Below are positions 7,000-49,506 of a DNA stretch of 64,000 nt, one piece after another. The stretch spans positions 2,418,001-2,482,000 of the forward strand of contig NZ_CP117430.1 in the NCBI RefSeq assembly GCF_030687395.1, read 5' to 3'. The position numbers and the translations under genes were made by a program. The DNA is from Pseudomonas wuhanensis (GTDB lineage: Bacteria; Pseudomonadota; Gammaproteobacteria; Pseudomonadales; Pseudomonadaceae). The notes beneath the pieces were generated by a model. It was given only the letters and a program-made list of their open reading frames with translations. It was not told the origin of the DNA and made no database searches. Each line of letters begins with the position of its first letter. Within the stretch, counting starts at the first letter, position 1.

Positions 7000-7200
7000 A
7001 TGAAATTTGCACAACTGAGTGCCTTTGCGGCGGCGCTGGTGATGTCTTCCGTTGTTTTGGCTGAAGGTGGCGGCGATCGAACTTTCGAAAAGATGATGAC
7101 CGCCAATGACCGCTCCGTAGAGCTGTTCGTAGCCAAGGAACAGGCCCGCGACCCAGTCGTCGTCAATGAAAAGAAAGACGACAACACCAAAGACTTGTAA
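7000..7200 (+). CDS. Small exported protein with PtrA-like N-terminus
   Basis: 66-aa protein with a signal peptide (MKFAQLSAFAAALVMSSVVLA) followed by EGGGDRTFEKMMTANDRSVE, which resembles the N-terminal region of the Pseudomonas metal-inducible regulator PtrA. The charged tail (KKDDNTKDL) has no recognised domain. GAGG lies before the ATG. It follows czcCBA and carries a shared promoter motif, so metal induction is likely. The link to PtrA is from memory of the family motif, and a periplasmic location is inferred from the signal sequence. PtrA has been described as a type III secretion repressor, which need not apply here. Confidence 0.7.
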   Translation: MKFAQLSAFAAALVMSSVVLAEGGGDRTFEKMMTANDRSVELFVAKEQARDPVVVNEKKDDNTKDL

Positions 7201-7279: not shown

Positions 7280-7612
7280 ATGAAGTTGATCAAGTTGATT
7301 GCGTTCGCCGGGGTGATGGCGATATCCCTGAATGTGCTCGCTGAAGGTGGCGGTGACAGGACATTCGAAAAGATGCTGAGCGCCAACACCCAAGCCATGG
7401 AGCAATACGCTGCCAGCCAGGGCAAACCTGCGCCGGTGGTGAAAGACTACGAATACGGGATGAAACTGGATGTGGTGAAAGTGGTGAGCGTTGTGCGGCC
7501 GCAAGTTGCTTGTGCCGTGGTGCCTACTGCCATGACCTATGAGGATTCAAAGGGCCAACTCAACACCATCAAATACACGGTGGCAGGCGATTGCCGCCGA
7601 CAGGGCGGGTGA
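7280..7612 (+). CDS. Exported PtrA-like/DUF2790 fusion protein
   Basis: 110-aa exported protein. The ATG at 7280 is chosen because the signal peptide (MKLIKLIAFAGVMAISLNVLA) starts there; upstream in-frame sequence overlaps the terminator. Residues 21-45 (EGGGDRTFEKMLSANTQAMEQYA) repeat the PtrA-like motif of the preceding gene. The C-terminal half (YEYGMKLDVVKVVSVV...CAVVPTAMTYEDSKGQLNTIKYTVAGDC) has the hallmarks of the DUF2790 family: the YGM.LDV opening, two cysteines that could pair, and the MTY.DS.G..... strand. The combination suggests a duplication of the first gene joined to a DUF2790 module. Function is unknown; periplasmic metal handling is a guess from context. Confidence 0.72.
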   Translation: MKLIKLIAFAGVMAISLNVLAEGGGDRTFEKMLSANTQAMEQYAASQGKPAPVVKDYEYGMKLDVVKVVSVVRPQVACAVVPTAMTYEDSKGQLNTIKYTVAGDCRRQGG

Positions 7613-7642: not shown

Positions 7643-7979
7643 TATTTCAATTCGGGATGTTTAACGGGTGTGGCGCAAGTACAGACGCTTCCCACAATGT
7701 TTTCAGGTTGTCCGTCGGACGTCCGGTCTCTAGCCTGTGTTCGTCGCTGCCAATTCAGCGACCGGGATTGGAAACCCCGAGTAGAACTGAGCGCACAAGC
7801 GCCTTTCATAACGTATCCTTGCGCACTTCCAATGTGTGCACTCCGTTATGGCGGCTGTGCGCGGGAGACCTTCGGGTCAACCGGGTTCTCCGTTCCCCGG
7901 GTTTCCAACCTGCGTACAGCTGCCCCCCCTTCGTTCGGAAACCGAATGGGTCAGCTCCACCGTTAGACGGAGATACAGC
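7643..7979 (+). ncRNA. Candidate structured leader RNA of DUF6124 gene (copy 1)
   Basis: A 337-bp leader, conserved at high identity with 10247-10493 plus 11867-11966. Visible helices: GTCC/GGAC (7710-7720), GTCGCTG/CAGCGAC (7743-7762), GCGC/GCGC (about 7791-7802), a two-tier hairpin CATAACG/CGTTATG (7807-7813 with 7844-7850) over TGCGCAC/GTGTGCA (7820-7826 with 7834-7840), GACC-TTCG-GGTC (7867-7878), and a 3' hairpin near the ribosome site (7918-7956). TTGGAAACCC (7768-7777) is complementary to GGGTTTCCAA (7899-7908). In copy 2 two base changes in the CATAACG helix keep pairing as G-U. An open frame (from 7657) also crosses the leader, so a leader peptide is a possible alternative. Confidence 0.6.
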
Positions 7980-8360
7980 ATGAAAAAACCAACACCAAAT
8001 CCTCCCGAAACAGAAGCCGTTGCGGACGCCAACTCAACGTCCCCCTACACCACCATCAACTCCAAAAAACTCGACGAAGCCGCCGAACGTGCGCTCGATT
8101 ACTACCTGAACCCTACCGCCCACATCATGGCCACGCCCTACACCCCCAACCAGATGTATTTCGCCAATCCCAAAGCCGACACCGAATCTCTGCTGGCCAA
8201 TGCCAGCGAGTCATTGTCCTCGGCCACGGTCATGCTCGGTGACTTCGCCGCACTGCTGGAAGGCCCACATCGCAAGACTCTGTTGGGTATTGCGCAAGTG
8301 GTCATGTTGGGAGAGTTGGCGGTGAATCAGGCGTTGGATAACGTCGAGGTGACTACATAG
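7980..8360 (+). CDS. DUF6124 family protein (copy 1)
   Basis: 126-aa cytosolic protein of the Pseudomonas DUF6124 family; function unknown. The ATG at 7980 follows ACGGAGA. After a variable Pro/Thr-rich N-terminus (residues 1-27) comes a conserved part: KKL.EAAERALDYYLNP.....T.YTPNQM, then LLANASESLSSATVMLGDFAALLEG, then HRKTLLGIAQVVMLGELAVNQALDNVE. It is mostly helical by eye. There is no signal peptide or catalytic motif. It differs from the paralogue at 11967-12347 at about 20 positions, mostly residues 11-27 and the last three. It stands alone behind the conserved leader and is followed directly by a REP pair. Confidence 0.82.
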   Translation: MKKPTPNPPETEAVADANSTSPYTTINSKKLDEAAERALDYYLNPTAHIMATPYTPNQMYFANPKADTESLLANASESLSSATVMLGDFAALLEGPHRKTLLGIAQVVMLGELAVNQALDNVEVTT

Positions 8361-8362
8361 CC

Positions 8363-8455
8363 CTGTGGGAGCGAGCCTGCTCGCGATGGCGGTGGGGCAG
8401 TCGACGAAGATGTTGGATTGTGCCGACGCCATCGCGGGCAAGCCCGCTCCCACAG
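8363..8455. repeat. REP pair (REPIN)
   Basis: Two inverted Pseudomonas REP palindromes (CTGTGGGAGCGAGCCTGC and its mirror CGGGCAAGCCCGCTCCCACAG) around a ~34-nt spacer, between convergent genes. Such REP doublets are moved by RAYT transposases encoded elsewhere in the genome. Confidence 0.9.
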
Positions 8456-8484
8456 TTTTTCGCCGTGTGTTAAAGACCGGGCAT

Positions 8485-10246: not shown

Positions 10247-10493
10247 TATTTCAATTCGAAATGTTTAAAGGTTGTGTCTGGAATACAGAACCTTCCCACA
10301 ATGTTTTCAGGTTGTCCGTCGGACGCCCGGTCTCTAGCCTGTGTTCGTCGCTGCCAATTCAGCGACCGGGCTTGGAAACCCCGAGGGTAAGAGAGCGCAA
10401 AAGCGCCTTTCATGACGTATGCTTGCGCACCTTCATGGTGTGCACTCTGTTATGGCGGCTGTACGCGGGAGACCTTCGTGTCTGCCGGGTTGC
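10247..10493 (+). ncRNA. Structured leader RNA copy 2, 5' part (interrupted)
   Basis: Collinear with 7643-7890 of copy 1. The GTCGCTG/CAGCGAC hairpin is identical. The two-tier hairpin is kept (10411-10417 with 10448-10454, and 10424-10430 with 10438-10444) despite substitutions: CATGACG pairs TGTTATG through two G-U pairs where copy 1 has A-U and G-C. The loop sequence between has changed. The leader stops at the IS element; its last 8 bp (CGGGTTGC) are the target duplication. Confidence 0.6.
10486..10493. repeat. IS target-site duplication, left
   Basis: CGGGTTGC, repeated exactly at 11867-11874 on the other side of the element. Eight bases is the length typical of IS256-family insertions. 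Confidence 0.9.
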
Positions 10494-11866: not shown

Positions 11867-11966
11867 CGGGTTGCTCTCTCCCGGGTTTCCAACCTGCGTA
11901 CAGCTGTCACCCATTCGCTTGGAAACCGAATGGGCCAGCTGCAACTATCATAGAGAGAGAAACATC
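11867..11966 (+). ncRNA. Structured leader RNA copy 2, 3' part
   Basis: Begins with the duplicated CGGGTTGC and continues collinear with copy 1 (CCCGGGTTTCCAACCTGCG...). It holds a strong hairpin just before the ribosome site: CAGCTG (11901-11906) with CAGCTG (11936-11941), and CCCATTCG (11910-11917) with CGAATGGG (11927-11934). GGGTTTCCAA here would pair with TTGGAAACCC in the 5' part, which is now 1.4 kb away across the IS. Confidence 0.6.
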
Positions 11967-12347
11967 ATGAAAAAACCAACACCCAATCCTCCCGAAGCAA
12001 ACACAGCTACGGACACCGACCCAACATCCCCCTACGCCTCCATCGACGCCAAAAAACTCCACGAAGCCGCCGAACGTGCGCTCGATTACTACCTGAATCC
12101 TACCGCCCACGTCATGGCCACGCCCTACACCCCCAATCAGATGTTTTTCGCCAATCCCAAAGCCGACACTGAATCCCTGCTGGCCAGTGCCAGCGAGTCA
12201 TTGTCCTCGGCTACGGTCATGCTCGGTGACTTCGCCGCTCTGCTGGAAGGCACACATCGCAAGACTCTGTTGGGTATTGCGCAAGTGGTCATGTTGGGAG
12301 AGTTGGCGGTGAATCAGGCGTTGGATAACGTTGAGCCGGGTGAGTAG
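11967..12347 (+). CDS. DUF6124 family protein (copy 2)
   Basis: 126-aa paralogue of the gene at 7980-8360, same length, near-identical from residue 28 (changes such as D/H, I/V, Y/F, N/S, P/T) and variable in residues 11-27. The ATG at 11967 follows GAGAGAGA; an upstream in-frame start lies within the leader. Function unknown. Its native leader is split by the IS256 element, so expression must now come from a promoter within the IS, from the remaining 100 bp, or be lost. Confidence 0.8.
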   Translation: MKKPTPNPPEANTATDTDPTSPYASIDAKKLHEAAERALDYYLNPTAHVMATPYTPNQMFFANPKADTESLLASASESLSSATVMLGDFAALLEGTHRKTLLGIAQVVMLGELAVNQALDNVEPGE

Positions 12348-31841: not shown

Positions 31842-32351
31842 GGAGATAAACCTCGTCGCGTCTTTGATAAAAAGTCGTTCTTGGTGGAAATTCATGCTCC
31901 TGCCAGGTACGCAATTAAAAGGGGCGTAAAAGGCTGCTCGCTGACCAGAAGCTTAGGCGGTCAAGTCGGGTTGGCGGGGATGGCGACGGGATGAACGATG
32001 GGCTCGAGGGGAAGTGAGCAGGTAAGGGCGAACTGGCGAGCGCATTCGGGCGTCGTGGGCCTTGGTGCGGACTTCAGTGTGGAGCCGGGTTACCTAATTA
32101 CGCTTCCGTCCCTCGGGACAACTTCGTTCCAGTCGGCAACCTCGTCAAACACACCTTGTGGGCGGTACAGACACGAATCGGCTCGCGGGGTAGGTGCGAA
32201 CAGCGACTCGAAAGCCCTTGCCAGGGCCTCTGATTAGCGGGAGCGAGGCCATCATGCCTTTGCTTTTTTGGCTCGTCAAACGTTTTGTAGTGCTTTTTTT
32301 CTGGCACTACATCTTTGGTCTAATACGACTAATCAGTCAGTTTTTGGTGCT
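31842..32351. other. Upstream region of aceA
   Basis: 510 bp without a credible gene. The aceA promoter should be here on the minus strand. A T-looped hairpin TGTAGTGC/GCACTACA lies at 32286-32311, with a T-rich loop rather than a T tail, so its role is unclear. Confidence 0.4.

Positions 32352-48241: not shown

Positions 48242-49506
<1,265 letters not shown>

Follow-up and report, generated by a model that had tools for sequence, protein, structure and literature searches.

Introduction

In bacteriophage P1, the C4 antisense RNA is required for full repression of ant (PMC8198154). This RNA is described as being processed by RNase P and as carrying two functional segments, b', which covers the ribosome site, and a', which gives specificity (PMC5320573). 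In the P1 record, the parts follow each other in the order promoter, a1 (48255-48261), b1 (48269-48276), c4 (48343-48419), a2 (48423-48429), b2 (48452-48459) and icd, which starts at 48470. A C1 operator is also annotated there at the promoter of c4.

Weinberg et al. 2010 predicted C4 and c4-a1b1 motifs in Proteobacteria (c4-a1b1 in gamma-Proteobacteria) and in phages (PMC2864571), and are cited for the prediction of C4 in Pseudomonadales (PMC5320573). The accessible portion of PMC2864571 contains neither a link to DUF6124 or DUF3077 nor any locus-by-locus matching. In Acinetobacter baumannii AB5075, group 1 comprises 21 similar C4-like sequences, of which 15 full-length ones were analyzed (Weiss et al. 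2016, PMC5320573). All but three of these 15 had the C4 fold, the a' loop was variable, and the RNAs were expressed and appeared to be processed (PMC5320573). The accessible portion of that paper names no target for them.

Here, we analyzed a 64,000-nt window of the Pseudomonas wuhanensis chromosome, in which two DUF6124 genes are preceded by similar leaders (copies 1 and 2). As in AB5075, C4-like RNAs are numerous in the single chromosome of this organism; unlike in that account, a target is proposed here, namely the adjoining gene, from covariation at four sites. C4 itself and multi-copy C4 in Acinetobacter are already published, whereas we found neither a link of C4 to DUF6124 or DUF3077 nor the matching of labels to targets locus by locus in the open-licence literature.

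Results

Identity of the DUF6124 leader

A sequence-only reading of the window had described the leader of copy 1, ≈337 nt long, as a candidate structured RNA conserved at two loci, and had suggested a search of Rfam. This search identified a match to the C4 antisense RNA family (RF01695) with a score of 68.8 bits (cut-off 45), preceded by a c4-a1b1 element (RF03163) at 58.0 bits (cut-off 46.7). There were four gathering-level Rfam matches in the window: C4, two c4-a1b1 elements and SrbA (32016-32234 on the minus strand, 85.6 bits), the last being a small RNA regulator of biofilms by its Rfam match. No riboswitch family scored over its cut-off in the window, although a new riboswitch class would not show up in such a scan. 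All of the sequence-testable features of C4 that we tried were found in the copy 1 leader, which is a known phage-type C4 antisense RNA.

The copy 1 locus resembles the P1 c4-icd-ant operon (immI) in RNA family, order of parts and spacing. P1 has the promoter TTGACC-17-TATAGT at the place that matches TTGTCC-17-TAGCCT in copy 1, and also has a stretch similar to AATTCNGCGACCGG before a1. The operon as it stands in P1 is missing: C4 at this locus is followed not by icd and ant but by DUF6124. By analogy with the ends of the P1 RNA, the mature C4 would be expected at ≈7850-7928, and the GG at 7850-7851 agrees, by position only, with the start of P1 C4. The features of both copies are listed in Table 1.

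Table 1. Features of the two C4-DUF6124 units, in window coordinates.
Feature	Position	Strand	Evidence
Copy 1 promoter-like TTGTCC (7708-7713), 17-base spacer, TAGCCT (7731-7736)	7708-7736	+	Recurring motif; P1 match
Copy 1 c4-a1b1 element (RF03163), including a1 hairpin	7730-7783	+	Rfam
Copy 1 a1 site TTGGAAACC, complementary to a'	7768-7776	+	Sequence; a'-a1 test
Copy 1 b1 site GAACTGAG, complementary to b' except at one position	7784-7791	+	By eye; b'-b1 test over all loci
Copy 1 spacer hairpin named in the sequence-only reading	7807-7850	+	3' arm runs up to the expected start of mature C4
Copy 1 C4 antisense RNA (RF01695)	7844-7930	+	Rfam; fold z -4.58
Copy 1 b' segment of C4, TCTCCGTT	7887-7894	+	
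Copy 1 a' segment of C4, GGTTTCCAA	7900-7908	+	
Copy 1 a2 site GGAAACC	7937-7943	+	
Copy 1 b2 site GACGGAGA, includes Shine-Dalgarno	7966-7973	+	-14.9 kcal/mol with own b'
Copy 1 DUF6124 gene (126 aa), proposed controlled gene	7980-8360	+	PF19619, 72.1 bits (cut-off 27)
Copy 2 promoter-like TTGTCC-17-TAGCCT	10312-10340	+	
Copy 2 c4-a1b1 element	10334-10387	+	Rfam
Copy 2 C4, 5' part	10449-10493	+	nhmmer, E 7e-10
Insertion sequence with mutator-type transposase, within copy 2 C4	10494-11866	+	
Copy 2 C4, 3' part; b' changed (CTCTCTC), a' unchanged	11867-11914	+	
Copy 2 a2 site	11919-11927	+	
Copy 2 b2 site AGAGAGAG, overlying the ribosome site	11952-11959	+	-13.2 kcal/mol with own b'
Copy 2 DUF6124 gene	11967-12347	+	Profile match G000:C1:2430144-2430329, 72.8 bits; start and stop from sequence

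The conservation between the two loci was borne out by blastn, which aligned the 5' part at 87.6% identity over 249 nt and the 3' part together with the gene at 90.1% over 456 nt. A protein-coding leader, which the sequence-only reading had named as one observation that would speak against an RNA, is unlikely: the homologous frame is open in just 28/79 related leaders and in 6/48 leaders of the P. wuhanensis genome. In 44/79 of the related leaders, at least one frame of any kind is free of stops along the whole leader.

The surroundings of copy 1 include two neighboring small genes with secreted-looking products (7000-7200 and 7280-7612) that share an N-terminal motif, AEGGGDRTFEKM; the second of these is DUF2790. 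The DUF6124 gene is followed by an inverted repeat (8361-8460) with many copies in relatives, which we take to be REPIN-like.

Promoter-like motif and RNA structure

The exact motif TTG-N20-TANNNT occurs in the promoter zone of 26/48 leaders of the P. wuhanensis genome and of 78/79 related leaders, compared to 0/144 and 0/237 control stretches, respectively. The -35 element is weak when measured against the consensus TTGACA, with at least four of six letters matching in 7/48 and 58/79 leaders, respectively (1/98 and 3/237 in the controls). Since the motif recurs with fixed spacing and has a counterpart in P1, the sequence before ≈7740, that is, the first 60-100 nt of the leader as delimited in the sequence-only reading, is probably a promoter region rather than RNA. 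The remainder is structured RNA, as had been proposed for the whole: the segment 7742-7985 folds better than 200/200 dinucleotide shuffles (z -4.39), and C4 alone also folds better than all of its shuffles (z -4.58).

The arms CATAACG (7807-7813) and CGTTATG (7844-7850) in copy 1, and CATGACG (10411-10417) and TGTTATG (10448-10454) in copy 2, have the letters described for them, but the helix is found mainly in close relatives, with a pairing run of at least 7 in 57/79 related DUF6124 leaders and 5/48 C4 leaders of the P. wuhanensis genome; own and shuffled partners differ little. In an RNAalifold consensus of 38 leaders, 11/42 pairs were changed on both sides, and the elements recovered were the C4 fold and two hairpins, that of a1 and a small one around a2; the spacer helix was absent from it, and so was the "terminal hairpin" that had been placed next to the ribosome site. 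An alternative hairpin between the 3' strand of C4 and a downstream GGCAGCT showed weak covariation by locus (z 2.0 to 2.8). The telling pairings are not the helices singled out in the sequence-only reading but those between the C4 loops and their targets, b'-b2, a'-a2, a'-a1 and b'-b1.

Matching of C4 labels to their targets

A C4 that controls the gene beside it would be expected to match the target sites of its own locus more closely than those elsewhere. At all 48 loci, b' and a' were therefore located by constant distances from the two ends of C4, and every target zone was scored by its longest Watson-Crick run, the own locus being compared with the others. For b'-b2, the mean run was 7.48 at the own locus compared to 4.38 at others, and the own target was best or tied in 32/48 cases. 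The corresponding values were 6.96 and 4.12 (26/48) for a'-a2, 6.81 and 4.32 (36/48) for a'-a1, and 6.44 and 4.06 (26/48) for b'-b1. None of 10,000 permutations reached the own mean at any of the four sites. Paralogues are not independent draws, and these permutation counts are therefore not exact probabilities; control zones of the same ancestry are a better guide. Such zones, taken further upstream and downstream, showed no own-locus excess over the 48 loci (z -1.0 to 1.6), and with the fixed zones there was none for the crossed pairs b'-a2 (z -1.2) and a'-b2 (z 1.4) either. (An earlier control of a' against the ribosome site, in which start codons were picked automatically and some were wrong, had been slightly raised at z 3.9.) The a1 and b1 zones overlap, and b' scored 6.52 in the a1 zone (z 18.2), a' reaching z 2.7 in the b1 zone. 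Segments that still held the CCGG stems gave a blurred duplex matrix, in which the own target was best in 7/48 cases by b' and 0/48 by a', and the own means were reached by 0 (b') and 1 (a') of 20,000 permutations; loop-only segments were then adopted.

When a2 and b2 were scored jointly, the own target was uniquely best for 38/48 C4s (10/48 not), and only 9/2256 non-cognate pairs reached the median own score. A second genome of the genus gave a similar picture. For 30 of its 36 C4 matches, the own target was best or tied in 25 (b2), 27 (a2), 27 (a1) and 21 (b1) of 30 cases, with 0/5000 permutations per site reaching the own means and controls at z -1.4 to -0.4; by the joint score, the own target was uniquely best in 24/30, and 3/870 non-cognate pairs reached the median. 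Related loci, reduced to 37 with distinct b' loops, also beat 5000 permutations at all four sites, but discrimination among them was low, with the own target uniquely best in 9/37 and 180/1332 non-cognate pairs equalling or exceeding the median own score. In 8/37 of these loci b' pairs over fewer than five bases; in 25 of the other 29, which have a run of at least 5, the paired target lies wholly or partly within -15 to -5. Taken together, the sequences suggest ≈fifty units whose labels have mostly changed along with their own targets, giving many parallel switches with little cross-talk.

A few loci depart from this pattern. L065 (G000:C1:6338349-6338435) is a C4 before a methyltransferase-like frame, with no recognizable a1 or a2 of its own, and its b' matches the b2 zone of L068 over 10 bases; L065 could act in trans or could be a remnant. 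The copy 1 C4 reaches the copy 2 target at a joint score of 14, mainly via a'.

Copy 2 and its insertion sequence

The two window leaders are one kind of unit, intact in copy 1 and interrupted in copy 2, where a 1.37-kb insertion sequence flanked by the 8-base repeat CGGGTTGC parts the two conserved pieces. The a'/a2 pairs are interchangeable between the copies. In contrast, b' and b2 are swapped in step: for the copy 1 b', pairing is worth -14.9 kcal/mol at the ribosome site of copy 1 and -5.8 kcal/mol at that of copy 2, while the copy 2 b' reaches -13.2 kcal/mol with its own site and -8.9 kcal/mol with that of copy 1.

Of the eight full copies of this insertion sequence in the genome, two lie within a C4 and one more begins or ends 138 bp before an a1b1 match; these three are the window copy and those at G000:C1:1331313-1332684 and 1611058-1612429. 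Under uniform placement, two or more insertions inside C4 would be expected with a probability of 1e-5, an estimate made after the fact. The C4 stems may be preferred targets of this insertion sequence.

Census of C4 and DUF6124

The P. wuhanensis chromosome (6,590,972 bp, one contig) has at least 48 C4 matches, 46 of them over the cut-off, and at least 47 a1b1 matches, 23 over the cut-off; both counts may be lower bounds, as 150 candidates were scored per search. No C4 or a1b1 matches were found in 14 control genomes. The C4 matches are scattered over both strands at a median spacing of 102 kb (smallest, 11 kb). An a1b1 match lies just upstream of 40/48, and a DUF6124 match within 700 nt downstream of 33/48. 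The chromosome has 39 DUF6124 matches, none with an internal stop. A whole C4 upstream is missing from six of these: the interrupted copy 2, three that have a1b1 but no C4 (L042, L089 and L090; G000:C1 near 5777167, 5657953 and 3975874), one with no such leader within the 150 nt inspected, and a partial match at 1701655. The three C4-less leaders may be unrepressed forms. Control of these leaders in trans by other C4s was not supported, their best joint scores being 10-11 compared to a median own score of 14.

Other genes also adjoin C4. DUF3077 follows C4 at L043 and L058 (and, below the cut-off, at L041), while Bro-N follows at L046 and L087, with "anti-repressor Ant" as the best PHROG. The remaining adjoining genes include small ones with no family. 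At L085 and L087, b2 precedes a short frame (14 and 21 codons, respectively), and a longer gene comes after it (Bro-N in the case of L087), an arrangement that recalls the icd-ant order of P1.

In a sample of the genus, C4 was found in 138/149 genomes and DUF6124 in 118/149, with at most 27 (C4) and 38 (DUF6124) candidates scored per genome, so that high per-genome counts are lower bounds. In a class-wide sample, with at most 15 candidates scored per genome, C4 was found in 18/274 genomes including P. wuhanensis, the other 17 having one to six matches each. Among related DUF6124 loci from named Pseudomonas genomes, C4 ends 48-72 nt before the start codon in 79/80.

DUF6124 was found in none of 72,556 plasmid records and in one of 50,697 phage records, at bases 61-405 of that record; 26 viral contigs came out of the DUF6124 search. 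The gap between the DUF2790 gene and a porin has no unit in three relatives, and the unit is therefore accessory. No clean insertion site could be read at the unit borders, where the flanks of the relatives are 78-89% identical.

The AlphaFold model of DUF6124 has a mean pLDDT of 70, and is predicted with confidence to form a helical hairpin (helices 68-90 and 96-120) and little else. Homology between DUF6124 and DUF3077 was not supported by profile comparison (probability 0.2%).

Discussion

The RNA family, the anatomy of the units and the locus-specific complementarity at four sites can be read from the sequence itself. We consider it likely that these loci are C4-type antisense operons like those of P1 and P7, with DUF6124 in place of icd and ant, and that they form an expanded set of largely insulated C4 repressors. 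We infer that a single transcript would start at ≈7742 and that C4 would be excised from it, presumably by RNase P as in P1. Its a' segment would then pair with a2 and its b' segment with b2, so that the ribosome site would be covered and DUF6124 would not be translated; by pairing with a1 and b1, C4 can probably also act on the transcript from which it is cut. Most units carry a' and b' labels matched to the sites of their own locus, and self-regulation with little cross-talk in the cell is therefore expected for most of them. The broken units, with insertion sequences inside C4 at two loci and three DUF6124 leaders that have no C4, are points against this reading, as are the ten C4s whose own target is not uniquely best, the lack of recognizable targets at L065, the low discrimination among the 37 related loci and the missing icd and ant.

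As in P1, C4 precedes anti-repressor-like genes at two loci of this genome. Unlike P1 and P7, the units are chromosomal, number ≈48, usually carry DUF6124, and each have a label of their own. Type I toxin-antitoxin loci are likewise repeated chromosomal units, in which an RNA blocks the translation of a small protein. The C4 units share the repetition and the proposed block of small-protein translation, but their RNA precedes the gene on that gene's strand and shares its transcript.

That proximity is what would favor a purely intramolecular attenuator, in which C4 is never released and folds in cis onto its own ribosome site. C4 ends ≈49 nt ahead of the start codon of its own transcript and matches the targets of its own locus; were folding confined to cis, such matching would need no selection against cross-talk. 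We nevertheless regard this attenuator as unlikely: the upstream a1 and b1 sites would be superfluous, the fold of a free 77-nt RNA is kept along with the GG at its expected 5' end, and C4 of P1 is described as a separate processed RNA (PMC5320573), although none of these points is decisive. The sequence-only proposal of a cis-regulator of DUF6124 holds insofar as regulation of the gene is probable; what it took for a new type of element belongs to the known C4 family, complete with a1 and b1.

It is very improbable that the units are decaying, unselected relics of phages, their matching a leftover of descent or of template switching among inverted repeats. Besides the broken units mentioned above, the missing unit at this gene gap in three relatives would agree with decay, but the complementarity is confined to the target sites and missing from the control zones, the paired target overlaps the region from -15 to -5 in most loci with a run of at least 5 (25/29), none of the 39 DUF6124 matches in the genome contains an internal stop, and the promoter-like motif is kept in nearly all related leaders (78/79). 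A ligand-binding riboswitch of a new class, or a protein-binding leader, would account for a structured leader conserved before a conserved gene but is extremely improbable, because the loop-to-target pairings of C4 explain the leader with no need for a ligand, no riboswitch family exceeded its Rfam cut-off, and the variable loops fit the ribosome site and three other sites, which a ligand core would not need.

On the reading as C4-type operons, the analysis suggests how a widespread group of genes with no assigned function could be controlled, and offers a candidate answer, at least in this genus, to the question of what multi-copy bacterial C4 RNAs target. A broader scenario, which we put forward as speculation and consider improbable, is that Pseudomonas domesticated a phage immunity RNA and turned it into a large array of barcoded antisense switches insulated from one another through co-evolution of labels and targets, the units being spread and lost as accessory modules. 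The DUF6124, DUF3077 and anti-repressor-like proteins would then be released once an invader brings in C4 targets or decoys that titrate the matching RNA, and the array would sense phages or rival elements that use C4. The ≈48 natural label-target pairs in one cell are a ready set for studying the evolution of antisense specificity, and also a source of orthogonal RNA regulators.
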